Below, piece after piece: positions 4,558 to 22,465 of a stretch of DNA of 48,247 bases. Under the pieces are notes generated by a model that searched no databases, was not told the origin of the DNA, and saw only the letters and a list, made by a program, of their open reading frames with translations. This DNA comes from Actinomycetota bacterium. Lineage in GTDB: Bacteria > Actinomycetota > Actinomycetes > Actinomycetales > Microbacteriaceae. Every line of letters begins with the position of its first letter. Positions within the stretch are counted from its first letter, which is position 1. Made by a program: the position numbers and the translations under genes. The stretch is from the NCBI GenBank assembly GCA_005778835.1, contig SXMG01000136.1:1-48247 (forward strand), given 5' to 3'.

Positions 4558-5412
4558 TCAGTCGTCGGGGTCGCTCGGGTCGAGCGGCGCGTGATGGTCG
4601 AACGCGGCTTCACCGCGCTTCCAGTAGCCCGAGATGGCGTACTGCTCTCTAGGCAGCTCCAGCTCGTGACGCAGCCATCGACGCACCTCGGCCATCGCGG
4701 CGGCCTCACCCGCGGCTGAGACGTAGGTGGCCTGATCGACGCCACGCGAGCGCAGACGCAGCAGCAACTGCTCGACCGTCGGCGCCTCGTGAACGACGAG
4801 GTCGTCGCGGCCCGACTGCTCGCAGAGGTACGACGCCGCTCCGGCAGCGCCCGCGCCGGCGAGTACGTGCACCTCGACGGCGGTGGAGGCGGGCACCTCG
4901 CGCGCCCACCGCGCCGACGTCGGCAAGGCGGTGGCGTCGGCGATGAGCAGGATGCGCGCCGCGCCGTGAACGGCACGCTTGGTGCCGCGCGGCCCGACGA
5001 GCACGAGCGGGTCGCCCGACGCGGCGGCGCGCGCCCACGCCCCGAGCGGCCCGGGCTCGGGGTGCAGAGCCACATCGAGACTGAGCACGACGTGTGTTCC
5101 GTCACGTTCGATGAGCATGGGAGTCAGATCTCGACCGTGCGCGGGGCGATCAGGACGCACGATGCCATCGGCGTCGGGCCCGACGGCGACAGGGGCAATC
5201 AGCTCTCCCGTGCTCGGGTCGGGCACGAAGGTTCGCACGTGGTCGCTCGGCCCATCGCTCTCGATGTCGAGCAGATCGGGGCCGGTGACCCGGATGCGCA
5301 TCATCGCCGGAGCGACCTCGCGAGTGTCGACCACCGTCGCACGCCGAGCCGTGAAGCGAAGGCGGCGACCAGGGCGCGCGAAGGGTCCTGCCGGCTCGGG
5401 CCGGGGCGTCAC
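4558..5412 (-). CDS. Siderophore-interacting-type flavin reductase
   Basis: A 284-residue FAD/NAD(P)H oxidoreductase of the siderophore-interacting protein (ViuB/SIP) family, which usually reduces ferric siderophores in the cytosol. Visible family features are the FAD-binding beta barrel with MMRIRVTGPDL (about residues 36-46), DHVRTFVPDP, RDLTPM, then GDPLVLVGPRG (about 134-144), a nucleotide-binding LLIADATALP segment, and the C-terminal REQYAISGYWKRGEA typical of SIPs. The chosen GTG start overlaps the RidA-family stop in GTGA; a longer upstream frame to 5547 would overlap that gene entirely. It is the last gene of the catabolic series, so a role in keeping an Fe(II) enzyme such as the extradiol dioxygenase supplied with iron is possible, but this is inference. 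Confidence 0.88.
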   Translation of the reverse strand: MTPRPEPAGPFARPGRRLRFTARRATVVDTREVAPAMMRIRVTGPDLLDIESDGPSDHVRTFVPDPSTGELIAPVAVGPDADGIVRPDRPAHGRDLTPMLIERDGTHVVLSLDVALHPEPGPLGAWARAAASGDPLVLVGPRGTKRAVHGAARILLIADATALPTSARWAREVPASTAVEVHVLAGAGAAGAASYLCEQSGRDDLVVHEAPTVEQLLLRLRSRGVDQATYVSAAGEAAAMAEVRRWLRHELELPREQYAISGYWKRGEAAFDHHAPLDPSDPDD

Positions 5413-5819
5413 GTGCTCACGCCGAGCGTCGGGTCGTGGGGCAGAATGGCGACGAGGTCGGCGTGTACTCGCGTGCCCTCGTCGAGGTGGGCAGCCATCA
5501 CCTGGCGCGCCGGTCTGCTCGTGGGGTCGGGGAAAGCTCGCTCCCACTCTCGATTGATCGCCTCGCGGTCGCGGTAATCGAGCACCCAGAAGGTGATCTT
5601 GATGATGTCGTCCAGCGAACCGCCGACGGCGTGCATGAGCTCTCGAAAGCGATCGAACAGCAGCACGACCTGCTCATCGAGGGTGTCGGGGGTTTGCTGC
5701 GTCTGCGGATCGCGTCCGGCAAGCACTCCGGAGTAGACATAGGGGCCGATGCGCGAGGCCGCTGGCACCGGGTTTCGGTGAGCGAAGCCGGAGATCTGCA
5801 CCGATTGACGACCGCTCAC
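5409..5819 (-). CDS. RidA (YjgF/YER057c/UK114) family protein
   Basis: A 136-residue member of the Rid family of trimeric enamine/imine deaminases. The motif SRPARQVM places an Arg at residue 105, matching the catalytic Arg of RidA-type enzymes; YVYSGVLAG (about 27-35) and IIKITFWVLDY (about 72-82) also match the fold. GTG start overlaps the FAH-family stop (GTGA) and its own stop overlaps the start of the flavin reductase gene (GTGA), so it is translationally coupled at both ends. Relatives in catabolic operons include 2-aminomuconate deaminases, so it may deaminate a nitrogen-containing intermediate here; generic enamine detoxification is the alternative. Confidence 0.9.
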   Translation of the reverse strand: MSGRQSVQISGFAHRNPVPAASRIGPYVYSGVLAGRDPQTQQTPDTLDEQVVLLFDRFRELMHAVGGSLDDIIKITFWVLDYRDREAINREWERAFPDPTSRPARQVMAAHLDEGTRVHADLVAILPHDPTLGVST

Positions 5820-6676
5820 GGTCGCGGCTCGTCAATCACAGTGTTCTCGATGGCCCCGAGGCCGTCGATCTCGGCGCGCACGATGTCGCCCGCCACGAGA
5901 AAGCGACCGGTGGGTGCGCCGATCCCGGCGGGTGTACCGGTGGCGATGATGTCGCCGGGCATGAGAGTCATCACCTGGGTGAGGTAGGCGATCTGCTCGT
6001 AGATGTCGTAGATCATGTCGTCGGTGCGCCAGTTCTGGCGCTCCTCACCGTTGACCGTCAGCCGCATGCCGAGGTCGAGGGGGTCGTCGATCTCACTGTC
6101 GGTCGTCAGCCAGGGTCCGATGGGTCCGTGGGTATCGAACGACTTGCCGAGGGTGAAGGTTGGCGAGCGCTTCTGCAGCCAATCTCGCACCGAGACGTCG
6201 TTCGCCACGAGGTAGCCGCCGATCACCGCGCGTGCCTGCTCAACCGGCACGTGGCGGCACCGGCGCCCGATGACCACGGCGAGCTCGATCTCGTAGTCGA
6301 GTTGGTCGCTGATCTCCGGTTTCACGATGGGGTCGTGGGGCCCGGAGATGCACGACACCTGCTTGTTGAACCAGAACTGGTTCTCCGGAATCGTGATGCC
6401 GGCCTTGCGAGCCTCCTCGGCGTGCTCGCGATAGTTCATGCCGATCCCCAGGTACTTCTGCGGGGCATCCACAGGCGGCAACAGCCAGACCGCGTCGAGG
6501 GGGTGTCGCTGGCCTTCTGCGGCGATGATCGTCGGCTCCAGATCGACAATGGTCGGCAGCAGCTCCTTCACCGACGAACCGACTCCGAGCGCGTCAGTGA
6601 TGTCGACCACGACGTCGCCGTCGACGCGGCCGAGGCGAGCTGGCCCCTGGTCGACACGGAAGCGGGCGAGCTTCAC
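5816..6676 (-). CDS. Fumarylacetoacetate hydrolase (FAH) family enzyme
   Basis: A 286-residue FAH-fold enzyme. The family includes acylpyruvate and fumarylpyruvate hydrolases, and the HpaG decarboxylase/isomerase and 4-oxalocrotonate decarboxylase of meta-cleavage pathways. With the GTG start at 6676, metal ligands are E129 and E131 (in DYEIELAVVIG) and D160 (VANDVSVRD), with a catalytic-type His in NYREHAEE (H85) and the GKSFDTHGPIGPW segment around 177-189. The start overlaps the upstream NTF2-like gene stop (GTGA). All expected active-site residues appear intact. In this context C-C hydrolysis or decarboxylation of a ring-cleavage product is likely; which one cannot be read from the sequence. 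Confidence 0.93.
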   Translation of the reverse strand: MKLARFRVDQGPARLGRVDGDVVVDITDALGVGSSVKELLPTIVDLEPTIIAAEGQRHPLDAVWLLPPVDAPQKYLGIGMNYREHAEEARKAGITIPENQFWFNKQVSCISGPHDPIVKPEISDQLDYEIELAVVIGRRCRHVPVEQARAVIGGYLVANDVSVRDWLQKRSPTFTLGKSFDTHGPIGPWLTTDSEIDDPLDLGMRLTVNGEERQNWRTDDMIYDIYEQIAYLTQVMTLMPGDIIATGTPAGIGAPTGRFLVAGDIVRAEIDGLGAIENTVIDEPRP

Positions 6677-7119
6677 GACTCGCCTTCCGAGTTCTGCTCC
6701 GAGGGCAGCGCGCCCCACACCTGTTCGGCGGTCGGCGTCATTTGAAAGCTCAAGAACCGCCACTCCCCGCGCTCGTCGCGCCGCAGTACCTGTGTGGCGA
6801 CGCCGCTCAGCGTTCGCTCACTGCCGTCGGGGTTGCGCAGCCGGTTGACGAGCGAACCGGTCATGATCGCGACGTCGCCCACCAGTCGTATGGCCAGTTC
6901 GCCGCGCTCGATGTCGAGATAGGCCTGGCGAGTCGCGAGGTGCTCGAGAAGCTGCGCCTTGGTGTGCACGACTCCCGGCGCGTGGATGTGCACGAGTTCG
7001 TCGTCGAGCAGCATCTCGAGGGCATCCACGTCGACATCGATGAGAGCTTGTCGCCGGCGGCCTTCCACGGCGATCAATTCCTCGCGGATGCTCGCCGCGG
7101 GTTCGTCGACCCGACTCAT
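6673..7119 (-). CDS. NTF2-like (SnoaL/DUF4440-type) protein
   Basis: A 148-residue single-domain protein of the nuclear transport factor 2 superfamily. It opens with the helix pattern REELIAVEGRRRQALIDVDVDALEMLLDDELVHIHAPG broken into typical NTF2 units and contains VHTKAQLLEHL and a GDVAIMTGSL strand. The ATG at 7119 was chosen because GGAG lies just upstream (GAAGGAGAAGAGACG). It follows the monooxygenase gene by 37 nt and overlaps the FAH-family gene by GTGA. Members act as small isomerases, dehydratases or ring-hydroxylating-enzyme small subunits, or bind ligands; no specific reaction can be assigned. Confidence 0.83.
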   Translation of the reverse strand: MSRVDEPAASIREELIAVEGRRRQALIDVDVDALEMLLDDELVHIHAPGVVHTKAQLLEHLATRQAYLDIERGELAIRLVGDVAIMTGSLVNRLRNPDGSERTLSGVATQVLRRDERGEWRFLSFQMTPTAEQVWGALPSEQNSEGES

Positions 7120-7156
7120 CGTCTCTTCTCCTTCCGTGACCGCTCTCGGCCGCGCC

Positions 7157-8437
7157 TCAGGCACGGGCCGAGGCCTCGTCCCACGTGCGGAACCCTGTGG
7201 CCTCGCCAGCCTCGAAGCCCGGGCGCGGTTGACCGACAAGACGGTGGTAGCCGCTGAAGATCTCATCGGCTTCGGCGAGGGGCAGCACCTCTTCGATGTC
7301 GTCGAAGGGCTTCCCGTTCGTGCGCTCTGCGACCATGCGACGGATGACCTCGTACCCTTCGCCTCGCATCGACATGACGATGCGGTTCACGGGTTCACGC
7401 CGCGCGGCGTCATAAGCGACGAAAGCCTCGTGGGGGTCGTCGTGCTCGCCAAGCTTCTCGGCGATGACGCGCGCGTCGAGGAACGCCTGGCAGACCCCGT
7501 TGCCCCCGCGCGGGAACATCGCGTGCGCCGCGTCGCCCAGCAGCACCACTCGTCCGTCGACCCAGTTCTCGAGTGGCTCGTGGCGGATGAGGGGGAAGAG
7601 ATACACCTCGCGGGCATCTCGCATGAGTGCCTGTACGTCGAGGAAGGGAAGCTTCACCGTGTCATACAGAGGCACGATGTCGTCCACGCTGCCGATCTGG
7701 TTCCAGTCCTCCACCGTCTCGTCGCGCTCGTACTCCACCACCCAGTTGATGAGGTCGAGACCCGAGCCTTCGAAATCGTGCGCGATGGGGTAGATGATCA
7801 TCGATGAGACGCGCGGGTCTCCGATGTGCAGAATGGTGTGGCCATCGCGGAACGGCTCGCGCAGTGTGGTGCCCCGGTACATGGTGATGCCCGAGTAGTG
7901 CGGGTCGGAGAGCGTCGGGTGCATCTGCTGGCGGATGGCCGACTTGATGCCGTCTGCCGCGATCACCGCGTCGTGTCGCACCGTCTCGGTACGTCCATCG
8001 CGATGCTCAAGGTGCAGAGTGACTCCCTCGGCGTCCTGCTCGTACTTCACGACCCGAGCACCGAGGACAATGCGCTCGGTACCTCCCATGCGCTCGACGA
8101 GGGTGTCGTAGAAGAGCATCTGCAGGTATCCGCGGTGCACGAATCGCTGCTCGTGCAGATAGCCCATGTGCACGCCGCACTTCTCGGCATAGATCTCTTG
8201 GCCGTAGTGGTTGAAGAAGATTGAGTCGACCGCATCGACCGAAATCTCGCGAAACTCCTCGAGCAGACCGAGTTCTTCGATCTCTTTGGTGCCGTAGACC
8301 TTGATGTCGACGCCGACCCCGAGCGGCTTGAGCTCGGCAACCGACTCATAGATGGTCGGAGTGACGCCCTGCTGCAGCAGTCGGAGCGCTGTGACAAGGC
8401 CCCCGGGGCCGGCGCCAATGATCGCGATGTCTGTCAT
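7157..8437 (-). CDS. FAD-dependent aromatic-ring monooxygenase, PhzS-like
   Basis: A 426-residue class A flavoprotein monooxygenase, expected to hydroxylate an aromatic or heteroaromatic acid with NAD(P)H and O2 and possibly to decarboxylate it. Visible signatures are the FAD loop GAGPGG (8-13), the DG motif AADGIKSAIR (D162, G163), and the GD motif LLGDAAHAMFP (G301, D302). SGITMYRG, LINWV, DWN and DARVIAEK positions resemble PhzS (5-methylphenazine-1-carboxylate monooxygenase) and related salicylate/nicotinate hydroxylases. It lies mid-operon between the dienelactone hydrolase-like and NTF2-like genes and is the probable ring-activating step of the pathway. Substrate unknown. Confidence 0.92.
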   Translation of the reverse strand: MTDIAIIGAGPGGLVTALRLLQQGVTPTIYESVAELKPLGVGVDIKVYGTKEIEELGLLEEFREISVDAVDSIFFNHYGQEIYAEKCGVHMGYLHEQRFVHRGYLQMLFYDTLVERMGGTERIVLGARVVKYEQDAEGVTLHLEHRDGRTETVRHDAVIAADGIKSAIRQQMHPTLSDPHYSGITMYRGTTLREPFRDGHTILHIGDPRVSSMIIYPIAHDFEGSGLDLINWVVEYERDETVEDWNQIGSVDDIVPLYDTVKLPFLDVQALMRDAREVYLFPLIRHEPLENWVDGRVVLLGDAAHAMFPRGGNGVCQAFLDARVIAEKLGEHDDPHEAFVAYDAARREPVNRIVMSMRGEGYEVIRRMVAERTNGKPFDDIEEVLPLAEADEIFSGYHRLVGQPRPGFEAGEATGFRTWDEASARA

Positions 8438-8495
8438 GGTTCTTTGGATTCCTTCGTCATAGTCGGTTCAGTTCTGCGATGGTCGGATGGCCGCG

Positions 8496-9260
8496 TCACG
8501 TGAGCGGCGCCCCGTCGGGGTCGACGCCTTCACCACGCAGCGCCTCGGCCAGCAAACGCTCAGTCGAGAGCCAGGCTCGGCGAGCACTGCGCGCGTTGTA
8601 GCCGAGCACGGGGTGATTGGCGGCGCGCGGCACAACAGGGTTCGTGAAGGCATGGCGGGTGCCGCTGTAGAGGTCGAGCTGCCAGTCGAGCCCGGCACTG
8701 TCAATCCCTTGGACGAGGCTGTCACGCTGCTCGGCGGTCGCCATCGGGTCATCGGCGCCGGTGCAGATCAGCACCGAGGCGTCGGCACGCGCAGACTCCC
8801 ATCCCGGCGCCAGAAGATCCAGACCACCGTGCACACTGACGACAGCACGAAGGTCGGCACCGACCCGCAGCAACTCGAGAGCTGTCGACCCTCCGAAGCA
8901 GTAGCCGACGGCGGCAATGCGAGTCGCGTCGATTTCTGGCAGGGCCTGAGCAGCGGAGAGCGCGGCCGCGGAGCGGGCGTGCCACCGAGGGCGGTCTGCC
9001 AGCATCGAGCCGATGAGAGGCCCGATCTCCTCGACCGACGTCGGTTGGGTGCGGCCACCCCAGACATCCGCGGCGAAGACGGCATAACCGAGAGATGCAT
9101 AGTCATGGGCCCAGGCGATCGCGAGCTCACCGAGCCCGAAGGCGTCGTGGAACAGCAGTACAGCGGGCTTCGGGTCCGCGTGTTCGGGAGCGACGAGCAT
9201 CCCGATCATGTCGACGCCGTCGTGCGCGTACGCAACATCGCGCGTGATGAGCGTGGTCAT
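8496..9260 (-). CDS. Dienelactone hydrolase family protein
   Basis: A 254-residue alpha/beta hydrolase. The catalytic triad of dienelactone hydrolase is visible: Cys nucleophile C121 in GYCFGGS, Asp about 171 in GADDPM, and His203 in GTRHAF; VLLFHDAFGL (35-44) and FAADVWGG (62-69) also fit. Cysteine rather than serine as nucleophile points to the true DLH subfamily (carboxymethylenebutenolidase), which opens dienelactones in modified ortho pathways. It is 43 nt downstream of a LysR gene and 58 nt upstream of the monooxygenase gene. A lactone or enol-ester formed in the pathway is a possible substrate. Confidence 0.9.
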   Translation of the reverse strand: MTTLITRDVAYAHDGVDMIGMLVAPEHADPKPAVLLFHDAFGLGELAIAWAHDYASLGYAVFAADVWGGRTQPTSVEEIGPLIGSMLADRPRWHARSAAALSAAQALPEIDATRIAAVGYCFGGSTALELLRVGADLRAVVSVHGGLDLLAPGWESARADASVLICTGADDPMATAEQRDSLVQGIDSAGLDWQLDLYSGTRHAFTNPVVPRAANHPVLGYNARSARRAWLSTERLLAEALRGEGVDPDGAPLT

Positions 9261-9303
9261 CGCGCCTCCCGGTAGCGCTCAGCACCGGTCGGTTCGTCGC
9301 ACC

Positions 9304-10203
9304 TCAGTCGTCGTGCGGCTGGCGGAACCAGGAGGTCATGAACGCGAGGAACACCTTGACCCGCTCGGGCGTCTGGCCTCCCGGGCCGTGCACGGCGTAC
9401 AGCGAGCGAGACTGCACCGGGTGCTGAGGCAGCAACTCGACGAGCTCTCCTGCGTCGAGAGCCTTGCGCGCCGAGCGGCGCGGAATAAGCCCTATGCCGA
9501 GGCCCGACTCGACCAGTTGCTCGATCACGAGGTAGGCATTCGTCGCCACCAGCGGGTCTTGCACCTTGACATGGGCGATCTCGTCGTCGACCGTCAACCG
9601 CCACGTCGCGTCGCTCATGTGGGCGAGAAGCGTGTGCTCCTGCAAGTCGGCGATCGTCGACGGAGTGCCGTGACGAGACAAATAGTCCGGCGACGCGGCA
9701 AGCAGGAAGGGCAGGTCGGTGATGCGCCGCACACGCACGCGCGAATCCTTCGGATCCCGCGCGTGGAAAGCCACATCGAAGCCGCGGTCGAGGAAGTCGT
9801 ACGGTCGATCGGAGATGCCCCCGAGCTCGAACCGAACTCGAATGCGGGGATGCGCCCGAACGAAGTCGCCGATCGCGGCGCCGAGGTCCATGAGCCCGAT
9901 CCACTTCGGACTGATGACAGAGAGCACGCCCTCTGCCGAGTCTTGTCGGCCGGCAAGCCGCTCGTCGGTCTCCTCGATCTCGAGCAGAATGCGGTCGGCG
10001 AACTCCGCGTAGGTCTGACCCGCCTCTGTCAGGCTCACCGACCGAGGTGTGCGGTTGACGAGCCTCACCCCGAGCGTCTCCTCGAGGTCGGCGACGTGCC
10101 TCGACACCAGCGAAGGCGAAATGCCGAGCTCCTGCGCTGCTCCGCTGAAAGTCGACGAATGAGCAACCGCAGCGAGCGTGCGCATGACGACGAGCCGGTC
10201 CAT
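9304..10203 (-). CDS. LysR-type transcriptional regulator (first)
   Basis: A 299-residue regulator with an N-terminal winged helix-turn-helix (HSSTFSGAAQELGISPSLVS is at residues 15-34) and a C-terminal periplasmic-binding-like effector domain (YDFLDRGFDVAFHA about 134-147; LIPRRSARKAL in the last third). It sits inside the minus-strand series, 66 nt after the ABC ATPase gene and 43 nt before the dienelactone hydrolase gene, rather than divergent from its targets as is usual for the family. Likely senses the pathway substrate or an intermediate and controls this operon. Confidence 0.92.
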   Translation of the reverse strand: MDRLVVMRTLAAVAHSSTFSGAAQELGISPSLVSRHVADLEETLGVRLVNRTPRSVSLTEAGQTYAEFADRILLEIEETDERLAGRQDSAEGVLSVISPKWIGLMDLGAAIGDFVRAHPRIRVRFELGGISDRPYDFLDRGFDVAFHARDPKDSRVRVRRITDLPFLLAASPDYLSRHGTPSTIADLQEHTLLAHMSDATWRLTVDDEIAHVKVQDPLVATNAYLVIEQLVESGLGIGLIPRRSARKALDAGELVELLPQHPVQSRSLYAVHGPGGQTPERVKVFLAFMTSWFRQPHDD

Positions 10204-10269
10204 GGCCGTGGCCTCCCTCTGCAGCGCGGCGAGTGCCCGTCAGTCTATCCAGGGCGTCGTGCGCGCTCG

Positions 10270-11145
10270 TCACGAGACTGCCTCTGCCTTGGCACGGAAC
10301 TCGCGCCGCCGGGCGCGGCGTTCGTCTCTGCCCTCGGGGCTCGATGCGGGCGTCGCCCCGAGCAGGCGTCGGGTGTAGGGGTGCTGCGGTGATCCGAAGA
10401 TGTCATCGACAGGAGCGAGCTCAACGAGGCTCCCCTGCGACATCACGCCCACTCGGTGAGCGATGTGCCGCACCAGGCCGAGGTCGTGGGCGATGAACAG
10501 ATAGCTCACTCCCGTCGACTGCTGCAGGTCGGCGAGCAGGTTGATGATCTGGCCTTGCGTCGACAGGTCGAGAGCGCTCACAGCCTCGTCGCAGACGACG
10601 AGGCGCGGCCGCAGCACGCGCGCGCGGGCCCTCGCGACGCGCTGCTGCTGCCCTCCCGAGAGCTCGTTGGGGAATCTCTGCAGGTGCGAACGGTCAAGAC
10701 CCACCATCTCGAAGGCCTCGAGCGTACGATCTCGCACCTCAGACCGAGTGGTCACCCCATGTCGACGGAGCGAGCTCTCAATGGAATGCGCCACGAGGTG
10801 CCGGGGATTCAGCGACGCCGAGGGGTCTTGGAACACGGCCTGCACCTGCCGCCGGTACGACAGCGGTGCCCGTGGCCCATCGTCGGCGACATCTCGGCCG
10901 TCGAACCTGATCGACCCTGCGAGTGGTGAAACAAGCCGCAGGATCGCCTTGCCGATCGTGCTCTTGCCTGAACCTGACTCACCCACGAAGCCGAGAGTCT
11001 CTCCGGGGGCGATCTCGAACGACACTCCTTCCACCGCTGGCACGATCCCGCGCCGTCCCCAGAATCCGCCGTTCGTCTCGTATCCCACGCTCAGATCGCG
11101 CACCTCCAGCAGAGGAGTCATGGCGTCGCCAGTCGCCGTGCTCAT
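10270..11145 (-). CDS. Peptide/opine-type ABC transporter ATPase (DppF-like)
   Basis: A 291-residue ABC ATPase of the oligopeptide/dipeptide/nickel class. Walker A GESGSGKS is at about 55-62, Q-loop in [11 protein letters not shown], signature LSGGQQQRV at 162-170, Walker B LVVCDEA about 182-188 and switch His in IAHD about 219-221; the C-terminal oligopeptide/dipeptide extension is present. Its ATG overlaps the stop of the fused permease-ATPase gene (ATGA). It works at the inner face of the membrane with the other ATPase domain as a heterodimer. Confidence 0.94.
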
Positions 11146-13034
11146 GCGCCGGCCTCGTCAGCCTCGAACGCGTCGAGCTGCCGATCGATCTCCATGCGCA
11201 ACTCGCCATCGATGGTCGCCAGGCGCCCGCTCGACTCCGCGTTCGCGGGATTCGCTGCCAGCAATGAGCGTGTGTACAGATGCTGCGGGTCGTGGAACAG
11301 AGTCTCGACCGAAGAGTCTTCGACAATGCGGCCCCGGTACATCACGGCTGCTCGATCGCACGTCTCTGCGACAACACCGAGGCTGTGGGTGATCATGAGA
11401 ACACCTAGTCCGTACTCGTCTCGCAGGTCGAGAATCAGGTCGAGCACCTGGGCTTGCGTCGTCACATCGAGTGCACTCGTCGCTTCGTCGGCGATCAGCA
11501 GCTCGGGGTCTGCCGCGAGCGCCATGGCGATCGCTACGCGCTGCGCCATGCCTCCTGAGAACTGATGCGGATAGTCGTCGAGACGCGAGGCCGCGTTGCG
11601 CACGCCAACTCGCTCGAGAAGTTCGATCGCGCGAGCACGTGCTTGCGCTCGGTTCATTGCCTTGTGCAGACGCAATGGCTCCGTCAGTTGCATGCCGACC
11701 GAGTGCACCGGCGACAGCGCGTTCATCGGGTCTTGGAAGACTGCCCCCATGCGCGTGCCGCGGATGTGAGCGAGCTCGGACTCTCGGCGATGAGCCAGTT
11801 CTTCACCCAGCAAGCGGATCGAGCCCGTCGCCAACCAGGTACCAGGCGGCAGCATGCCGAGCACCGCGCGAGCGAAGGTTGACTTGCCCGAGCCCGATTC
11901 GCCCAGGAGCCCGACAATCTCTCCCTTCGCGACGGTGATACTCACGTTCTTGACGATGCGCGCCTGCGTGCGGTCGGGCATTGCCAGCGCCACGCTCACG
12001 TCGTGGGCGACAAGTACCGGCTGGGCGCCAGAGCTCGACGATGTATCCGCCCCGATCGCCGCCTGCACGGTCGGAACCGCCGCGCGCGCCGCGCGCTCCT
12101 CCTCGGCCTGGGCGAGGCGAAGGCCCAGCCTCGGGAGCCGTCGTCGCTCGCCCGTGAGGGCATCGTTCAAGCCATCACCGAACACACTGAAGGCGAGCAC
12201 TGTGAGCACGATGGCGATGCCAGGAGGCCAGGTCAGGTGGGGGGCGACCGCCTGATTGTCCAGCGCGAGACTCAGCATGGCGCCCCAGGTCGGGATATCC
12301 GACGAGAGACCGATGCCGAGGAAGCTCATCGCCGACTCGATCATGATCGCAGAGCCCAGGAACACCGTGCCTTGAGTGACGATCGGGCCCACGAGGTTGG
12401 GCAGAATCTGCCCGAAAATGATCTGGCGACGCGGCAACCCGGCAACTTCAGCAGCCTCGACGTAGAGCTTGTTGCGCTCGACGAGGACAACGGCGCGGGT
12501 CATGCGGGCGAACAGGCTCGCACCGATGAGTCCGATGGCGAACATGAGAATGATGATGTTCCGGCCGAGGATCGCGACGACGGTGAGACCGATGACCATG
12601 CCAGGCAAGGCCTGCGCCATGTCGATGAAGCGCATGCCGATGCGGTCCCACCACCCACCGTTGAATCCGAAGATCAAGCCGAGAGGTACGCCGATGAGCG
12701 CTGCAACGACCACGGCACCCAGAGCGACGATGAGGACGATCTGAGCGCCGAAGATCAATCGACTGAGCTGATCGCGACCGAGATCGTCAGTGCCGAGCCA
12801 GAACTGCGCCGACGGGGGTTCGAGAATGTTGTCGAAGTTGACCTGCGTGGGATCGTAAGGAGCGAGGAGCGGCGCGAGAATCGCCGTGAAAAACAGCACG
12901 ACGATGAACGCACCGGCGACGATCGTTCCGGGCTGCTTCCGCATGCGTGCGACGATGCGGCCGATGTTTGACGATCGGCCTTGGTGGCGTCCCGAGCCCG
13001 AGACGGCGATGAGGGTCGTAGAAGTTTCACTCAT
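11142..13034 (-). CDS. Fused ABC permease and ATPase (DppC-DppD type)
   Basis: A 630-residue fusion of two importer subunits. Residues 1 to about 300 form a DppC-type permease with several membrane helices and the ATPase-contacting EAA loop ([12 protein letters not shown], about 193-204). Residues about 340-630 are an ABC ATPase: Walker A GESGSGKS (378-385), signature FSGGMAQRV (492-500), Walker B LLIADEA (512-518) and switch His550. Such DppCD fusions are known in actinobacteria. The gene is coupled at both ends by ATGA overlaps with the DppB and DppF genes. Substrate is probably an organic acid, peptide or amino-acid conjugate connected with the downstream enzymes. Confidence 0.94.
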
Positions 13035-15749: not shown

Positions 15750-16799
15750 ATGACGGTCGTCGACATCAATGTGCATCATCTGCCCGAAGATCTCTTCACG
15801 AACGAGAAGATTCTGAACGGCTTCCTCACTAGTGCTCCGCGCGGGTTCGGCGAGATCGCCACCGTGGGCGAGACTGCCGACGGCCGCAAGCAGCTGATCC
15901 TGGAGAAGCCGAAGGGCTTCCAGAACCTCAACTATGTCGACGGTGACTACTCGGCTGAGGCGAAGCTCGCTGCAATGGATGAGGCCGGCGTCGACTACGG
16001 CATCATGCGAGTGCCCGTGTGGCAGGAATGGCTGGGTATCGAAACCTGCCGCGCTGTTAATGACAACGCGCACGAAATCGTTCAGCGGTCGGGTGGGCGG
16101 CTGTTCTCGACGGCATGCGTGCCGCCCTGGGGTCGAAAGGAAGACCTCTATGAGCTTGAGCGCTGCGTGAACGAGCTCGGCGTTGTCGGCGTGCAGATGG
16201 CCTGCCACTACGGCCAGCTCTACCTCGACGACGAGGTCTTCAAGCCCTATCTCGCTGTGCTCGACAAGCTGGGCCTGCCCGTGATCGTGCACCACACCCC
16301 GCTCCCCGTCGAGTGGAAGTCGGTCATCGACTACACGAACCTCCGTCGCGAATTCGGGCGCATTGTCGACCAGGCGACCGCGGTAGGACGTGAGCTCTTC
16401 AGCGGCATGTTCGACGAGTTCCCGAACCTCAAGTTCATCCACACGATGATGGGCGGCAACTGGTTCGCGAACGCCGATCTCATGACCCCGCACGCCACGG
16501 TCAAGAAGGAGGCGCTGAACCGTCTCGATCCGACCGGCGGCGAGAAGATTCGGCACTACCTCCAGAACAACATCTTCTTCGATATGACCCACCCACACTC
16601 CTGGGGCAAGCACCAGGTCGAAGCGGCCGTGAAGATCAGTGGCGCCGAGCACTACTTGTTCGGGTCCTCATTCCCGGTCTTCTACAGCTGGATGGGGCAG
16701 GGCGTCGAGTTCCTCAAGAACGAGATCGAGGTGACCGACGAAGAGCGCGAGCTGCTGCTCTCCGGCAACGCCAAGCGCCTCTTCAATCTGCCGATCTGA
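15750..16799 (+). CDS. Amidohydrolase-2 (ACMSD-like) family protein with altered metal site
   Basis: A 349-residue TIM-barrel protein of the COG2159 amidohydrolase group, which contains non-oxidative decarboxylases (ACMSD, gamma-resorcylate) and hydratases (LigJ). The usual N-terminal metal motif DxHxH reads DINVH here, so the first His is N7 while H9 remains. H181 (VIVHH) and H231 (FIHTMMGG) fill later His positions. The C-terminal metal/catalytic Asp, usually in a G-S/T-D-Y/F-P context, is replaced by Ser in FGSSFPV (S307). It is divergent from the transporter operon and 8 nt upstream of the DUF3500 gene. It may use a different metal or none; a decarboxylase or hydratase role in the pathway is inference. 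Confidence 0.85.
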   Translation: MTVVDINVHHLPEDLFTNEKILNGFLTSAPRGFGEIATVGETADGRKQLILEKPKGFQNLNYVDGDYSAEAKLAAMDEAGVDYGIMRVPVWQEWLGIETCRAVNDNAHEIVQRSGGRLFSTACVPPWGRKEDLYELERCVNELGVVGVQMACHYGQLYLDDEVFKPYLAVLDKLGLPVIVHHTPLPVEWKSVIDYTNLRREFGRIVDQATAVGRELFSGMFDEFPNLKFIHTMMGGNWFANADLMTPHATVKKEALNRLDPTGGEKIRHYLQNNIFFDMTHPHSWGKHQVEAAVKISGAEHYLFGSSFPVFYSWMGQGVEFLKNEIEVTDEERELLLSGNAKRLFNLPI

Positions 16800-16807
16800 T
16801 CGCGACG

Positions 16808-18112
16808 ATGGCCGACCGTACCGACGAGGACATCGACGGGTTCTTCACGACCGCTCGGGTGAGCGGGAGAGAGGAGGCCGTGCTGCTGGGCGAGGCGAGC
16901 TTTCGCGACTATCTCTATGAGCATGATCACGAGTCGCTCGCGCCGTGGCGGGGCATGACCTATGAGGAGTTCACTGCCGCCCGCCAGGACAACCCGTTCC
17001 TGCAGCAGTTGCTCGCCGACTGGAACGCCCTCTACGACGAGGAGTTCGTCGGCGTGACGAGCGACGGCGTCGTGCAGGAAGCGCTCTACACGCTTCCCCC
17101 CGAGGGTTCAGCAGACCCCGCGCTGGTCGGGGCAGCACGCCGCCTCGTCGATGCCCTCGATGACACCGGTCGCGCCGCAGCGATGCACGCGCTCGATGCT
17201 CGGCAGTGGCGGGCGTGGAGCAACCCCGAGTTCGTCTTCCACCGTGTTGGCATTCGCCTCGAGGACCACTCCGACGATGTCGTCGAGCACGTGCACGAGC
17301 TCTTGCGCGCTGCGTTGAGCCCCGAGGGCTACCAGCAGGTGCGCGAAGCGATGGAGCTCAACGGGTTCCTCGGTGAACTCGTCGATCTGCCGTCGATCAT
17401 GAACGAGCGCAGCTACTGGTTCTCGTTCTTCGGCACGCCGTCGATCGATGAACCCTGGGGTTTCCAGATCTTCGGACACCACCTAGCACTCAACTTCCTG
17501 ACGGTCGGCGGACGCGAGGTTATCGCTCCTGTCTTCATCGGCGCCGAGCCCGCTCTCAGCGACGACGCTCGAAGGCCGATCTTCGACACACGCGAGAAGA
17601 CCGCTGTCACTCTGGCGTCATCGCTGAACCCCGAGCAGCGCGCTAAGGCCGTCGTGTATCCGTCAGTACTCGACCCCACGATGCCCGAAGGCCGCCTGCA
17701 CCCGGCCGACGAGCGCCACGTGGCGGGGGCGTTTCGCGACAACCGAGTCGTCCCGTACGAGGGCATTCCGGTGACCGAGCTCGACCGACGTCAACGCGCT
17801 CTCTTGCGCGAGATCGTCGAAGACTTTCACCTGCTCCTCGCCTCGCCCGAACGAGCGGCGACGATGGGGGAGTACGACGCGCACCTCGACGAGACCTGGT
17901 TCTCGTGGTACGGGGCGACCGACGGCAGCGAACCGATCTACTTCCGTGTGCACAGTCCGGTGATCCTCGCCGAGCTCGACAATCACGCGGGCGTGTGGCT
18001 ATCGAACACCCTGCCGGCGAGATTCCATGTACACAGCACGCTCCGTCATCCGAACGGCAACGATTACGGTCGCGCTCTGCTCGCGCAGTGGCGGGCACGG
18101 CGCGACCGCTAG
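16808..18112 (+). CDS. DUF3500 domain-containing protein
   Basis: A 434-residue protein with no known biochemical function that I recognise as DUF3500. Family-type segments are WSNPEFVFHRVGIRLED (about 137-153), WFSFFGTPS (204-212), PWGFQIFGHHLALNF (216-230), PVFIGAEP (241-248) and a C-terminal FHVHSTLRHPNGNDYG. The conserved His, Glu and Asp residues suggest a metal-dependent or hydrolytic active site, but this is inference. There is no signal peptide. It starts 8 nt after the amidohydrolase stop, so the two are surely co-transcribed, and its stop overlaps that of the convergent LysR gene in a palindromic CTAG. Confidence 0.85.
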   Translation: MADRTDEDIDGFFTTARVSGREEAVLLGEASFRDYLYEHDHESLAPWRGMTYEEFTAARQDNPFLQQLLADWNALYDEEFVGVTSDGVVQEALYTLPPEGSADPALVGAARRLVDALDDTGRAAAMHALDARQWRAWSNPEFVFHRVGIRLEDHSDDVVEHVHELLRAALSPEGYQQVREAMELNGFLGELVDLPSIMNERSYWFSFFGTPSIDEPWGFQIFGHHLALNFLTVGGREVIAPVFIGAEPALSDDARRPIFDTREKTAVTLASSLNPEQRAKAVVYPSVLDPTMPEGRLHPADERHVAGAFRDNRVVPYEGIPVTELDRRQRALLREIVEDFHLLLASPERAATMGEYDAHLDETWFSWYGATDGSEPIYFRVHSPVILAELDNHAGVWLSNTLPARFHVHSTLRHPNGNDYGRALLAQWRARRDR

Positions 18113-19020
18113 GGAATCGTCTCGTGCACAGTGTCGAGGAGGCCGGCGAGCGCCGGGTTCGCGGCGCTGGCACCCGGGCGCGTCAGCACGAGCAGGCGAA
18201 GAGGTTCCGGTTCGGGATCGAATGGGCGGACGACGATGTCGAAACGGACGAGGCTGCAACCGTCGGCATCGGGCAGCGCACCGACTCCGACGCCGGCTTC
18301 GATGAGCGGGATGCTCGCCTGAAGGGTCGAGGTCGTTCTCACTCGCCCCGGCTCCACGCTGCTGAAGTCGAGCACCCGCTGCATCGCCTCCGGCAGGCTC
18401 GGCACTGCTGCCATACGCCGCGGCAGCAGAAGCGTCACGTCCGCGAGTGCGCTCAGTGGGTAGGCGTCGTCGGCGTCGTCGCTACCGGGGGGAAGGGCCG
18501 CGACGATGCGGACCGCGCCGCCGTCGATCACCTCGAGAGTTTCCCGAGTACGGGCGATGAATCGATCGTTGTCGGCGACGAGCACTGCAGCAAGGTCCAC
18601 TCGGCCGCTGAGCACGAGTTCGATGGCCTCCCACGGCGGCGGGTCGACGAGCTGCACTTCGACGTGCGGCGCTCGCACCGCGTGCTCGCGAAGCAGGCGT
18701 GGAACCCAGTGCCAGATCACCGCGGGCACCGCAGCCATCGTGAGCGAGCCGACCGTGCCCGCGCTGAACCGCTGGACGCCAGCGACGATGTCGTCGACCT
18801 CACCGAGCACGCGCGAGGCGGCATCGAGCAGGAAGCGGCCGGCGCTCGTCGGTTCGACGCCGCGCGAGCTGCGAACGAACAGGGGCGTGCCGAGCTCGTT
18901 CTCGAGCTTGCGAATGGCCACCGTCAACGGGGGCTGCGAGAGGTGCAGCTGCGCTGCGGCCGCGGTCAACGAACCGGCCTCGGCGGCAGCCACGAAGTAG
19001 CGAAGCTCCCGCAGTTCCAT
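18109..19020 (-). CDS. LysR-type transcriptional regulator (second)
   Basis: A 303-residue LysR regulator. The winged helix-turn-helix occupies the first 60 residues (SLTAAAAQLHLSQPPLTVAI, then LENELGTPLFVR); an effector-binding domain follows (GSLTMAAVPAVIWHW, WEAIELVLSGRVDLA). It is divergent from the extradiol dioxygenase gene across 128 nt that contain a classic T-N11-A box, so it probably controls that operon and itself. Its stop shares CTAG with the DUF3500 stop on the other strand. Confidence 0.94.
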   Translation of the reverse strand: MELRELRYFVAAAEAGSLTAAAAQLHLSQPPLTVAIRKLENELGTPLFVRSSRGVEPTSAGRFLLDAASRVLGEVDDIVAGVQRFSAGTVGSLTMAAVPAVIWHWVPRLLREHAVRAPHVEVQLVDPPPWEAIELVLSGRVDLAAVLVADNDRFIARTRETLEVIDGGAVRIVAALPPGSDDADDAYPLSALADVTLLLPRRMAAVPSLPEAMQRVLDFSSVEPGRVRTTSTLQASIPLIEAGVGVGALPDADGCSLVRFDIVVRPFDPEPEPLRLLVLTRPGASAANPALAGLLDTVHETIP

Positions 19021-19023
19021 AAC

Positions 19024-19029
19024 TTGACA
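19024..19029 (+). promoter_or_regulatory. TTGACA, possible -35 element
   Basis: A perfect TTGACA lies 4 nt outside the second LysR start, facing the dioxygenase gene. No good TAnnnT -10 occurs 16-18 nt downstream; that position is inside the LysR box. It may be chance. Confidence 0.25.
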
Positions 19030-19046
19030 CTAGTGGATGCGGCTTT

Positions 19047-19065
19047 CCATAGGCTCCGACTATGG
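19047..19065. promoter_or_regulatory. LysR-type regulator box (CCATAG-N7-CTATGG)
   Basis: A perfect 6+6 inverted repeat, CCATAG (19047-19052) and CTATGG (19060-19065), spaced by 7 nt. It contains T19050-N11-A19062 with dyad symmetry, the textbook LysR-family recognition pattern (ATAG-N7-CTAT). The centre is about 36 nt upstream of the second LysR start and 93 nt upstream of the dioxygenase ATG, so one bound site could give both autoregulation and activation. Confidence 0.72.
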
Positions 19066-19148
19066 CGACAATCGGCAACCGGTAGTTCCACGGGAGACCA
19101 TCCTGGACGCACCATGAGGGCATCCGATCCAACACTGAGGAGGCATTG

Positions 19149-20144
19149 ATGCTGCCGATGACCAATTTCTCACCGCCGTTCGCAATCACGCGCGCCAGCC
19201 ACGTGTCACTATCTGTGACTGACCTCGAAGCGAGCCGCGACTTCTATCGCGACGTGATTGGGCTAGTCGTGACCGAAGAGACCGATGATGCCGTCTACCT
19301 GCGCGGGCTGGAAGAGGCCGCCCACCACAGTCTCGTGCTCGAGCGCGGCACCGACGCGAAGGCACTGCGGGTGGGTCTGCGTGTGCGCACCGACGCTGAC
19401 ATCATCGCCGCCGAAAGGCACTTCGCATCAGCGGGCATCGAACACGAGCGCGTCGAGAAACCCTTTCAGGGCCCGACTCTGCAGTTTCGCGACCCCGTCG
19501 GAACCCATATGGAGCTCACGAGCTCGATGCAGACGGTGCCGCGCAAGATGCAGGCCTTCGATGAGTTCGTCGCCGGAGCCCCGCAGCGGCTCGACCACTA
19601 CCAGGTCGTGACCTATGACGTGCAGGCCGCCACCGACTTCTGGATGGGACTCGGCATGCGCATGTCGGAGTACACCGCGACTGATGGCACGGATGAACTC
19701 TGGGGCACCTGGATGGAGGTCAAGGGCAACACTCACGATCTCGTGTTCACCAACGGCCGCGGGCCTCGACTGCATCACTTCGCCTACACCGTGCCTGACG
19801 GCCTGTCGCTGCTGCATGCGGCCGACGTCGCAGGGGCGAAGGGCTTCGGCGACGAGATCGACCGTGGGCCCGGACGCCATGGCATCAGCAACGCACTGTT
19901 CCTCTACCTCCGAGACCCCGACCAGCACCGCATCGAGTTGTTCACGACGCACTATCAATTCATCGACCTCGAAGACGAGCCCCTGCGGTGGGACGTCAGC
20001 AATCCGAAGCGCGCGCAGCTCTGGGGCATGCCCGCCTCGAACCGCTGGTTCTTCGAGGCAAGCGAGTTTCCCGGCGAGACGTTGACCGAGCCGCTGCTGC
20101 AGGCGACACCGCCGACCCTCGAGGCCTACCTCGGCCTTCACTAG
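19149..20144 (+). CDS. hpaD: Extradiol ring-cleavage dioxygenase, HPCD type
   Basis: A 331-residue two-domain vicinal-oxygen-chelate enzyme like homoprotocatechuate 2,3-dioxygenase. The Fe/Mn ligands are H150 (RLDHYQV), H209 (RLHHFAY) and E263 (RIELFTTHY). Second-sphere residues of HPCD are also present at matching spacing: H196 (NTHDL), H244 (GRHGIS) and Y253 (LFLYLRD). It opens a catechol-type ring with O2 to a 2-hydroxymuconate semialdehyde-type product. GAGGAGG (19137-19143) is an excellent ribosome site for the ATG at 19149. It leads an operon with RraA-like, hydratase and aldolase genes. The actual substrate may differ from homoprotocatechuate because the rest of the pathway does. Confidence 0.93.
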   Translation: MLPMTNFSPPFAITRASHVSLSVTDLEASRDFYRDVIGLVVTEETDDAVYLRGLEEAAHHSLVLERGTDAKALRVGLRVRTDADIIAAERHFASAGIEHERVEKPFQGPTLQFRDPVGTHMELTSSMQTVPRKMQAFDEFVAGAPQRLDHYQVVTYDVQAATDFWMGLGMRMSEYTATDGTDELWGTWMEVKGNTHDLVFTNGRGPRLHHFAYTVPDGLSLLHAADVAGAKGFGDEIDRGPGRHGISNALFLYLRDPDQHRIELFTTHYQFIDLEDEPLRWDVSNPKRAQLWGMPASNRWFFEASEFPGETLTEPLLQATPPTLEAYLGLH

Positions 20145-20167
20145 TGTCGCGATCATCAAGGAGACCC

Positions 20168-20887
20168 ATGACGACGCCGCAGCCCCTCGAGCCCGCCTTG
20201 CGCGAGCTCCTGCTCGCCGCACCGACGGCAGGCCTCTCGGCGCAGTTGCGCGCCCTCGGCATTCAGGGAGTCTCGATCGAGGGGGTGACACCTGTGCGCC
20301 CGGGCGCCAAGTTGGTCGGAGTCGCCCGCACCCTGCGATATCTGCCGCTCCGTGAAGACCTCTTCCGCGAACACGGCGGCGGGTACAACGCGCAGAAGCG
20401 CCTGTTCGACGACGTCGGCGAGGGCGAAGTGATCGTGATCGAGGCGCGCGGCGATAGCCGCGCAGGCACCTTGGGCGACATCCTTGCCGCTCGTGCCGTT
20501 TCGCGAGGAGCAGCCGGAATCGTCACCGACGGTGCCGTGAGAGATGTCGATGCTCTGGCTGCCCTGACGATGCCCGTCTTCGCGCTTGCTGGCCATCCCG
20601 CTGTTCTGGGGCGAGCTCATGTGCCCTGGGAGCACGACGTGACGATTGCGTGCGGAGGCGCAACCGTGCAACCAGGAGATGTGATCGTCGGCGACACCGA
20701 CGGAGTCATCGTGATTCCCCGCGGCATGGTCGACAAGGTTGTGACCGCGGCCCTCGTTCAAGAGGAAGAGGACGCGTGGGTGGCGGCGCGGGTGTCGGAA
20801 GGGCATCCGCTCGACGGACTCTTCCCGATGAATGCCGACTGGAGGGCCCGCTACGAGGCCAGCCATCCGGCGGGAGAGGAGCGCTGA
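20168..20887 (+). CDS. RraA family protein (HMG/CHA aldolase-like)
   Basis: A 239-residue protein of the RraA fold. Catalytic members are 4-hydroxy-4-methyl-2-oxoglutarate / 4-carboxy-4-hydroxy-2-oxoadipate aldolases and oxaloacetate decarboxylases; others inhibit RNase E. The catalytic signature of the aldolase branch is visible as G-D (LGDILAARA, 102-110) and R125-D126 in TDGAVRDVDAL. AAGGAG (20158-20163) precedes the ATG at 20168, 23 nt after the dioxygenase gene. In this operon a role as decarboxylase or aldolase on a pathway keto-acid is more likely than RNase regulation. Confidence 0.88.
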   Translation: MTTPQPLEPALRELLLAAPTAGLSAQLRALGIQGVSIEGVTPVRPGAKLVGVARTLRYLPLREDLFREHGGGYNAQKRLFDDVGEGEVIVIEARGDSRAGTLGDILAARAVSRGAAGIVTDGAVRDVDALAALTMPVFALAGHPAVLGRAHVPWEHDVTIACGGATVQPGDVIVGDTDGVIVIPRGMVDKVVTAALVQEEEDAWVAARVSEGHPLDGLFPMNADWRARYEASHPAGEER

Positions 20888-20891
20888 CCGG

Positions 20892-21677
20892 ATGCTCTCG
20901 CCCGACCTCATCGACACCCTCGGCGCCGAACTGGCCGAGGCGACACGCCAGCGCTCCATGCTGCCCCGCATCACTGCCCGTCACCCCGAAGCCGAGGTGG
21001 ACGACTCGTACGCCATCCAGCGCGCGTGGCGTGAGCGCCGCCTCGCGGAGGGCCGCAGCATCATCGGCAGAAAGATCGGACTCACCTCGCGCGCCATGCA
21101 GCTCGCGACCGGGATCACCGAGCCCGACTACGGCATCATGTTCGACGACACTGTCTGGCACGACGGAGACGAGATTCCGACAGCCCGCTTCGCCAACACC
21201 CGCCTCGAGGTCGAGCTCGCTTTCGTTCTCAAGAGCCCACTCGAAGGCGAGGGGCTCACGATCGACGATGTGCTCGACGCGACCGAGCACGTGACACCCG
21301 CACTCGAGCTGCTCGACTCGCACTTCGAGCTAGAGGGCCGGACGATCGTCGACACGATCAGCGACAACGCGGCCTACGGCGGCTTGATTCTCGGGGGGCG
21401 TCCCGTGGGCCCCCGCGAGCTCGATCTGCGCTGGATCGCGGCAACGCTGAGCCGCAACGGAGCGATCGAAGAGACCGGCGTAGCGGCGGGTGTGCTCGGG
21501 CATCCCGCGCTCGGCGTCGCGTGGCTGGCGGCGAAGCTGGCGCAGCATGGCGATCGGCTTGAAGCCGGCGAATACATACTGGCGGGGTCGTTCACGCGGC
21601 CCGTCTGGTTCTCGGCGGGCGACACTGCGGTCGCCGACTACAACGACCTGGGGAGCATCTCGTGCCGCTTCGTCTAG
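20892..21677 (+). CDS. hpaH: 2-oxo-hept-4-ene-1,7-dioate hydratase type
   Basis: A 261-residue member of the HpaH/MhpD hydratase group, which adds water to a 2-hydroxydienoate to give a 4-hydroxy-2-oxo acid. IGRKIGLTS (58-66) with catalytic-type Lys61, the metal-binding E106/E108 of LEVELAFVL and the following [10 protein letters not shown] are all present. I took the ATG at 20892, 4 nt after the RraA-like stop; the longer frame to 20832 overlaps that gene. Its 3' end overlaps the aldolase gene by 16 nt. Confidence 0.92.
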
Positions 21678-22465
21678 CCCCGACCCTGCGTGATCGGCTC
21701 GCCGACACTGACCGCCCCCTTGCGGGCATGTGGCTGTGCACCGGCAGCCCCCTCGTCGCTGAGATCGTCGCCGGTGGTGAGCTCGACTGGGTGCTCATCG
21801 ACATGGAGCACTCGCCGCTCACTCTCGACTCCGTTGCAGCCCAGCTGCAGGCGATTGCCGCGTACGCGACGACTCCGGTGGTGCGAGTGCCCTCCAACGA
21901 CGCGGTCGTCATTAAACAAGTGCTCGATCTCGGCGCGCAGAACCTGCTCGTGCCCATGGTGTCGTCCGCAGACGAAGCGCAAGCGGCCGTCGCTGCCGTG
22001 CGCTACCCGCCGCACGGCGTTCGCGGCGTGGGGTCGGCACTCGCACGCTCGGCACGGTGGAACCGCATCGATGACTACCTCGAGAACGCCGGCCGTTACA
22101 CCGCTCTCTTCGTGCAGATCGAGACGATCGCTGGAGTGGAGGCGGCGACCGAGATCGCTGATGTCGACGGAGTCGATGGCGTCTTCGTCGGCCCGAGCGA
22201 TCTCGCGGCATCGATGGGGCTGATCGGCCAGCAGTCTCACCCCGAGGTGGTGGAAGCCGTGCGCCGAGCCTTCGCGGCAGTGCGAGCGTCGGGCAAACCG
22301 GTCGGAGTGAATGCGTTCGATGCTGGCCTGGCGCGCGACTATGCGCGTGAGGGTGCATCGTTCTTGCTCGTCGGAGCCGACGTCGCCGTGCTCGCTCGAG
22401 CGGCTGAAGGCGTCGCTGCTCAGTGGGGCGCCGCTCCGTCTGAACAGACAATCGACTCCTACTGA
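21662..22465 (+). CDS. hpaI: 4-hydroxy-2-oxoheptanedioate aldolase (HpaI/HpcH)
   Basis: A 267-residue class II pyruvate aldolase that cleaves 4-hydroxy-2-oxo acids to pyruvate and an aldehyde such as succinate semialdehyde. Residues match E. coli HpaI with a constant +5 offset: H50 (DMEHSP), R75 (VVRVP), E154 (QIETIAG) and D180 (VGPSDLA) for base, substrate and metal binding. It starts at a GTG inside the last codons of the hydratase gene (16-nt overlap), which implies translational coupling. Last gene of the dioxygenase operon; no hairpin terminator is visible after it. Confidence 0.93.
   Translation: MPLRLAPTLRDRLADTDRPLAGMWLCTGSPLVAEIVAGGELDWVLIDMEHSPLTLDSVAAQLQAIAAYATTPVVRVPSNDAVVIKQVLDLGAQNLLVPMVSSADEAQAAVAAVRYPPHGVRGVGSALARSARWNRIDDYLENAGRYTALFVQIETIAGVEAATEIADVDGVDGVFVGPSDLAASMGLIGQQSHPEVVEAVRRAFAAVRASGKPVGVNAFDAGLARDYAREGASFLLVGADVAVLARAAEGVAAQWGAAPSEQTIDSY

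Follow-up and report, generated by a model that had tools for sequence, protein, structure and literature searches.

The window described here, a stretch of 48,247 nucleotides (contig SXMG01000136.1 of assembly GCA_005778835.1), comes from an actinomycetotal bacterium of the family Microbacteriaceae and is contig 133 of its source genome (G000), an assembly of 2.47 Mb in 168 contigs that is 81% complete. Between positions 4558 and 22465 it carries a cluster of 18 genes, bordered by a tRNA-Ser gene (4464-4551) on one side and a DUF2975 gene (22523) on the other. This cluster probably serves the catabolism of gallate or of a galloyl compound, a reading in which observed gene families, gene set, neighbours and residue changes are combined with reactions, a reaction order and a substrate that we infer. 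An initial annotation had predicted 17 genes for the degradation of an aromatic or heteroaromatic acid. The cluster is real and every gene named there is present at its place, but the count is 18; the siderophore-interacting-protein family flavoreductase (SIP) and a small NTF2-like protein had gone unnamed.

The plus strand holds two gene groups. The first pairs a decarboxylase-type member of the amidohydrolase superfamily (AHY; 15750-16799; PF04909, 8.7e-26), the candidate gallate decarboxylase, with a DUF3500 protein (16808-18112; PF12006, 1.1e-95, 321.1 bits against a cut-off of 27.2), the putative ring-opening enzyme. The second consists of an HpaD-type extradiol dioxygenase with a changed pocket, Q153/A290 (19146-20144, with an ATG at 19149 as a possible start; TIGR02295, 335.6 bits, cut-off 321.4), an RraA family aldolase/decarboxylase (20168-20887; PF03737, 2.4e-35; NF006093, 218.1 bits, cut-off 208), an HpaH-type hydratase/decarboxylase (20832-21677; TIGR02312, 344.6 bits, under the cut-off of 351.5) and an HpaI-type aldolase (21662-22465; TIGR02311, 300.1 bits, under the cut-off of 368.8). 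HpaD alone among the three Hpa genes thus passes its curated cut-off.

On the minus strand lie SIP (4558-5412; PF08021, 8.7e-18, and PF04954, 4.4e-17, on 4558-5370; the inferred start is a GTG overlapping the RidA stop), a RidA family protein (5409-5819; Ribonuc_L-PSP, PF01042, 6.6e-11), a FAH family hydrolase that may act as an acylpyruvase for 2,4-dioxoadipate (5816-6676, start inferred; PF01557, 3.2e-71) and the DUF4440/NTF2-like protein (6673-7119; PF14534, 2.1e-15). With these inferred starts, the four genes overlap by a few bases. Upstream of this run, with gaps of 37 and 58 bases, follow a PhzS-like FAD-dependent aromatic hydroxylase (flavin monooxygenase, FMO; 7157-8437; PF01494, 1.8e-26; NF005720, 415.9 bits, cut-off 400), with best PDB matches to 2rgj/3c96 at about 3e-62, and a dienelactone hydrolase (DLH; 8496-9260; PF01738, 3.3e-35), the proposed hydroxydienelactone hydrolase. 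The ABC importer is encoded on the minus strand too and comprises an ATPase of DppF/OppF type (10270-11145; PF00005, PF08352), a fused permease and ATPase of DppC-DppD type (11142-13034; PF00528, PF12911 and PF00005 in one 630-aa frame), a DppB-type permease (13031-13975; PF00528, PF19300) and a NikA/GsiB-like family 5 solute-binding lipoprotein (SBP; 14030-15547, start inferred; PF00496, 3.5e-47), which scores 104.6 bits, below the cut-off, against a NikA-type model. Two LysR regulators, both on the minus strand and both with PF00126 and PF03466, complete the cluster (9304-10203 and 18109-19020).

Relatives of AHY were collected in one scan of genome contigs by exact peptide patterns. The scan gave 46 loci, of which L046 (26% identity) was set aside; records from the source genome itself may be left out of the 45 that were kept. 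Further genes of the cluster, here called the module, occur in 25 of these 45 loci (L001-L021, L038 and L043-L045), counted within the stretch of each locus and with misses at contig or stretch ends included. The hosts are an unplaced actinomycete metagenome-assembled genome and members of the Microbacteriaceae, Promicromonosporaceae, Cellulomonadaceae, Micrococcaceae, Nocardiaceae and Streptomycetaceae; cultured hosts include Microbacterium murale (L017) and Streptomyces abyssomicinicus (L019), the latter lacking HpaD in its locus. DUF3500 accompanies AHY in all 25 loci, FMO and the NTF2-like protein in 23 each, DLH in 22 and FAH in 21, followed by RidA and HpaD (15 each), RraA (13) and HpaH, HpaI and the peptide-type SBP (11 each). 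FMO was not seen in L002 and L020, both of which are cut at that place by a stretch or contig end. None of the module genes was found in the remaining 20 AHY loci at the thresholds used. The AHY rows of the 25 module loci and of the window, 26 in all, group in a single clade with a support of 100/100.

The set goes beyond chance, as parts of it recur with AHY in 25 other loci; 12 cluster proteins tried against 20 control stretches gave no match. Among 394 genomes of the class, AHY was found at E 1e-60 or better in two, G000 and G117, and in G117 DLH, FMO, the NTF2-like protein, FAH, RidA, DUF3500 and HpaD lie beside it. The search for clusters with the same gene set, which the initial annotation had proposed, thus yielded a module shared with 25 actinomycete AHY loci. 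It also turned round the view that HpaD-HpaH-HpaI form the backbone and the rest are extras: the conserved core consists of the genes earlier taken as extra (DUF3500 in 25/25 loci against 15 for HpaD and 11 each for HpaH and HpaI), and HpaD, HpaH and HpaI are optional.

The DUF3500 family is presumably the same as IPR021889. A 2026 paper gives IPR021889, written there as DUF3550, as the open-ring protein of the fungal 1,2,3,5-tetrahydroxybenzene pathway and states that this pathway "currently seems restricted to fungi" (PMC13094099). For Aspergillus nidulans, a review describes the conversion of gallate to 1,2,3,5-tetrahydroxybenzene, from which a DUF3500 protein is proposed to yield 5-hydroxydienelactone (PMC12388069). 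A DLH is the gene to be expected next. A flavin monooxygenase and a FAH-like gene share the window cluster with DUF3500, and the Aspergillus cluster of Martins et al. 2024 reportedly includes a FAH-like protein and a short protein too. The window cluster resembles the fungal pathway in its monooxygenase, its putative gallate-derived substrate and DUF3500 as the proposed ring opener. It differs in being bacterial, in having AHY and FMO in place of one decarboxylating monooxygenase (PhyA), and in the addition of DLH, RidA and the HpaD branch.

DUF3500 is more widespread than the module and occurs in 61 of the 394 genomes. Twenty DUF3500 stretches from 19 of these 61 genomes were drawn, one of which (L091) is the module of G117; the 19 others were compared. 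No AHY was found in these 19 stretches outside the module, four of the DUF3500 stretches being shorter than 17 kb and the DUF3500 query missing even the DUF3500 gene of L103. A FAH relative lies near DUF3500 in six of the 19 (L085-L088, L090 and L101) and in none of 20 control stretches at the same threshold, 19 of the controls coming from the same genome set. Pairs of DUF3500 and FAH without AHY stand beside a FAD monooxygenase in L090 (5677-10356) and beside a SnoaL-like protein in L085 (6615-9284); such pairs may represent a simpler version of the fungal cluster in bacteria. Within the family, H224 and H225 are kept in 37/37 aligned members and E389 in all 32 that reach this position. These residues fit a metal or acid-base site and would be compatible with either ring opening or dehydration.

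The remaining AHY loci bear on the substrate. A gene of polyphenol type lies near AHY in 14 of the 20 non-module loci. Tannases are encoded within about 2 kb of AHY in L023 and L029 (534 and 513 bits to 6yq4), and the large subunit of a pyrogallol hydroxytransferase lies 3 kb from AHY in L030 (853 bits to 4v4c, against 256 for the next entry). A relative of the latter protein is encoded in L040 (53.7% identity over 436 residues); the weaker match in L041 (35%) may be to a different molybdoenzyme. Near AHY, L025 encodes URO-D, pterin-binding and B12-binding proteins, a combination typical of corrinoid methyl transfer, and L022 encodes one URO-D protein. Catechol-dehydroxylase-like molybdoenzymes occur in seven of the eight Eggerthellales loci (assigned by Pfam for L031 only). 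The molybdopterin oxidoreductase gene lies 1-2 kb upstream of AHY in L031, L032, L035, L036, L037 and L039, and that of L033, 44% identical, 4 kb downstream; none was seen in the 4.8 kb stretch of L034. In five Eggerthellales loci read by eye, an MFS-like transporter comes next.

Enzymes of the amidohydrolase superfamily usually have a catalytic Asp, which AHY lacks. The unusual metal site noted in the initial annotation is real and common to the whole clade as sampled: H9, H181, H182, R214 and H231 are kept in 46/46 aligned rows, N7 in 45/46 with one gap (L042), and S307 in 45/46 with a T in L027. Since the same residues recur across the rows, including the Eah-like ones, this site is normal for the clade, and the idea of a broken amidohydrolase was rejected. 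Two positions vary. At position 10, 35 rows, the window among them, have H, the eight Eggerthellales rows have F or M, and L040-L042 have W; at position 153, 38 rows have H and the eight Eggerthellales rows C or S. H10 and H153 of the window AHY are those of the tannase rows and L030.

The purified Eah protein of the eam cluster (Gordonibacter, Ellagibacter) converts ellagic acid to urolithin M5 (PMC12771579). The Eggerthellales AHY loci appear to resemble this published cluster in taxon, neighbours and family, and Eah is represented here by rows of that taxon and arrangement, not by the Eah sequence itself. They share 55-60% identity and the N-x-H, H-H, H and S site residues with the window AHY. 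Unlike it, they form a clade of their own (support 100/100, branch length 0.79) with F/M10 and C/S153, come from anaerobic gut Coriobacteriia and continue with dehydroxylases, not with ring cleavage. A second anaerobic parallel is the Pelobacter-type route for gallate, pyrogallol and phloroglucinol (PMC10470551): the AHY relative near the pyrogallol hydroxytransferase in L030 matches it, and the window cluster departs from it in having oxygen-dependent enzyme families and no transhydroxylase. Judged from residues and neighbours, gallate decarboxylase is the best and simplest reading of AHY. The initial annotation had suggested, as one option, a trihydroxylated ring that yields an acid directly on cleavage; this agrees with the evidence for gallate and pyrogallol, and as a class the option is well supported.

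The proposed route would begin with import of the substrate by the ABC importer. AHY would decarboxylate gallate (C7H6O5) to pyrogallol (C6H6O3) and CO2, and FMO would add one oxygen to give 1,2,3,5-tetrahydroxybenzene (C6H6O4). DUF3500 would then open the ring of this tetrol with O2 and loss of water, yielding hydroxydienelactone (C6H4O5), or 2,4-dihydroxymuconate. The lactone would be hydrolysed by DLH to 2,4-dioxoadipate (C6H6O6), an acylpyruvate, which FAH would split with water into pyruvate (C3H4O3) and malonate (C3H4O4). In an optional branch, the changed HpaD would cleave pyrogallol (or the tetrol), with pyrogallol and O2 giving 2-hydroxymuconate (C6H6O5); decarboxylation, hydration and aldol cleavage by RraA, HpaH and HpaI would lead to pyruvate and acetaldehyde. 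This branch would need no HpaE because the carbon that is cut already bears a hydroxyl group and the product is an acid. The formulas, checked by hand, balance at every step of the route. RidA may act as a tautomerase or enamine hydrolase, and the roles assigned to it, to the NTF2-like protein and to SIP are likewise presumptive.

A more specific reading, held tentatively and at rather less than even chances, is that the cluster encodes a bacterial 1,2,3,5-tetrahydroxybenzene pathway in Actinomycetota. DUF3500 would then be a new class of ring opener outside the known dioxygenase folds, and AHY an enzyme that decarboxylates gallate, a para-hydroxy acid, without the usual catalytic Asp; the AHY family would also be a missing gallate decarboxylase of anaerobic tannin degraders. 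The cluster would join an Eah-type decarboxylase with the fungal DUF3500 route, each known separately. Among the papers listed in literature searches, judged mainly by title and opening of the abstract, none seemed to describe this cluster in bacteria, most subscription journals lying outside the search. Gallic acid is a building block of plant tannins. If the reading is true, a pathway described so far in fungi only also runs in soil and plant actinomycetes, and DUF3500, a family of unknown function, gains a role in bacteria. Aerobes would also offer a gallate decarboxylase candidate of non-UbiD type that can be selected by sequence, and tannin, lignin (syringyl) and gut polyphenol metabolism would be connected by one enzyme family.

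Exact inverted repeats, sought as a shared LysR operator in up to 13 sequences per gene, were inconsistent. A 12-base near-palindrome, ATCGCACACGAT, occurs with up to one mismatch in the 260 bases that precede AHY in 11 of the 25 relatives (for example L003:9918, L015:5797, L016:9922 and L017:9931), and upstream of DLH in some others. A GntR-type regulator was seen by eye next to the module in some of these loci; the window has LysR genes.

Several points weigh against the gallate reading or parts of it. The exact peptide patterns favour close relatives of AHY. To our knowledge, the sole assayed relative of AHY acts on ellagic acid. A polyphenol-type neighbour was not seen in six of the 20 non-module loci (L024, L026, L027, L028, L034 and L042); of these, L028 and L034 span short stretches, and genes that look hydantoinase-like by eye lie in L027. 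The cluster itself showed neither a tannase nor an O-demethylase. The type of importer varies among the module loci, the peptide-type SBP being found in 11/25 and the binding protein of L003 being of sugar type by Pfam. The two copies of ATCGCACACGAT in the window lie inside FMO and at 37868, and none lies upstream of its AHY. HpaD occurs with HpaH and HpaI in seven of the 25 module loci and without them in eight, and HpaH/HpaI occur without HpaD in four (L018-L021); this loose linkage speaks against a strict single branch. Amidohydrolase-type decarboxylases are described as acting on ortho-substituted phenols (PMC7862292), and gallate has no ortho hydroxyl group. The DUF3500 comparison covers bacterial sequences. 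An AlphaFold model of DUF3500 (24 sequences, L008 and L013 left out; mean predicted local distance difference test score 79.5) has a single PDB match at E 0.001 or better, 9x86, which is titled dehydratase ApmL of amipurimycin biosynthesis (E 2.5e-17; template-modelling score 0.84 by target length and 0.51 by query length).

The ring-opening role of DUF3500 is accordingly the weakest part of the proposal. An alternative, unlikely as a whole and still deserving attention, would make DUF3500 a dehydratase or a lactonising enzyme and leave ring cleavage to the HpaD-type or an outside dioxygenase, which would be compatible with gallate as the substrate. Besides the title of 9x86, the presence of HpaD in 15/25 module loci would agree with such a role, as would the result, worked out by hand, that an extradiol cut between C2 and C3 of the tetrol gives the same diacid as an intradiol cut. 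However, HpaD was not seen in the other ten module loci within their stretches, and the role proposed for the fungal DUF3500 is that of a ring opener.

The same chemistry may also act on another acid, such as 2,4,6- or 2,3,4-trihydroxybenzoate or an O-methylated gallate. The two trihydroxybenzoates are ortho-substituted phenols of the kind on which the decarboxylases of the superfamily are described as acting (PMC7862292), and the genes for corrinoid methyl transfer next to AHY in L025 suggest methoxy aromatics. Against this, genes for tannase and pyrogallol hydroxytransferase near AHY speak for gallate and pyrogallol, and we regard a different acid as improbable. Much the same, or slightly less, can be said for ellagic acid or another galloyl dimer, of which AHY would open the lactone and perform a decarboxylation in the manner of Eah, DLH and DUF3500 processing the product. 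Eah is, as far as we know, the only assayed protein that resembles the AHY clade, and DLH could serve as a lactonase. However, the Eah-like rows stand in a separate clade and differ at AHY positions 10 and 153, the window residues match those of rows near tannase and transhydroxylase, and a function in biaryl conversion is not known for any cluster gene.

A variant homoprotocatechuate (4-hydroxyphenylacetate) pathway with its missing steps encoded elsewhere is very unlikely. The window shares HpaD, HpaH and HpaI family members with the homoprotocatechuate meta pathway (HpaD/E/F/G/H/I), its HpaD exceeds the TIGR02295 cut-off (335.6 against 321.4 bits), and the best PDB matches of this protein are homoprotocatechuate dioxygenases. 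The metal ligands and W192, H200, R243, H248, Y257, R292 and W304 are retained. N157 and R293 (Brevibacterium fuscum numbering), which we take to be substrate-binding residues, are changed to Q and A in all 16 cluster HpaD copies, in the window as Q153 and A290. By comparison, the 30 highest-scoring HpaD proteins of the 394-genome sample, 34-39% identical to that of the window, have N and R in 30/30. G117 contains both kinds by score, a separate high-scoring HpaD (433 bits) and a window-like one (331 bits). In L137, an aldehyde dehydrogenase gene precedes a higher-scoring HpaD, which HpaH- and HpaI-like genes follow (by eye). A search for aldehyde dehydrogenases near the 30 higher-scoring HpaD genes gave 0/30; it was given no weight, as these stretches measure about 4 kb and the query frame had been chosen by length alone.

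The window further differs from the homoprotocatechuate pathway in having RraA in between, HpaH and HpaI under their cut-offs, and neither HpaE nor HpaB. HpaB was not found in the 81% complete source genome (PF11794; 6/14 controls matched). The absence of HpaE claimed in the initial annotation stands for the cluster, whose 18 genes include no aldehyde dehydrogenase; genome-wide, the best match lies on a different contig and, at 514.9 bits, stays below the cut-off of 638.35. A search for CHMI/HpaF (PF02962) gave no match in the genome, the 14 control genomes being equally silent. The HpaD residues, the HpaB and HpaE searches and the optional nature of HpaD (not seen in 10/25 module loci within their stretches) led us to reject the homoprotocatechuate pathway, in agreement with the initial annotation, which had seen an aromatic-acid degradation cluster of another kind. 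A nitrogen heteroaromatic acid pathway, with RidA as a deaminase and AHY as an ACMS-type decarboxylase, is hardly credible: the cluster does contain RidA, and the PDB relatives of AHY include ACMS decarboxylases, but RidA was not found at threshold in L003, L011, L038 and L045, where the stretches are uncut nearby, AHY relatives lie near polyphenol-type genes in 14/20 other loci, and nothing pointing to the hydroxypyridine or pyrrole acid once suggested was found.

Some further features of these loci were observed. The cluster starts six bases past the tRNA-Ser gene and has a lower G+C content than its nearest flanks, as if inserted (0.63-0.68 at 6-22 kb against 0.69-0.74 on both sides). The idea of an island stays weak: G+C returns to 0.66-0.67 in most 2-kb steps at 28-38 kb, and repeats of 12 to 18 bases of the tRNA-Ser gene were not found elsewhere in the window. 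A SIP-family gene follows HpaI in L018 (16153-16989, by Pfam), with low-scoring matches in L010, L014 and L019-L021. As a guess, SIP could maintain the iron of the dioxygenase as Fe(II) or release iron bound in gallate chelates. Genes resembling lactonase-like beta-propeller proteins and aminopeptidases (by eye) share the stretch with AHY in L024, L030, L040 and L041. The Streptomyces loci L018 (911-2245), L019 and L021 contain, at a distance of about 9 kb from the first DUF3500 gene, another that is only remotely similar (64-68 bits). Importers of ribose type were seen by eye in L003, L005, L016, L018 and L043, with Pfam for L003 only, and the DppC-DppD fusion of the window (11142-13034) has a single long match in L001 (1146 bits), L010 (927 bits) and L012 (1010 bits).

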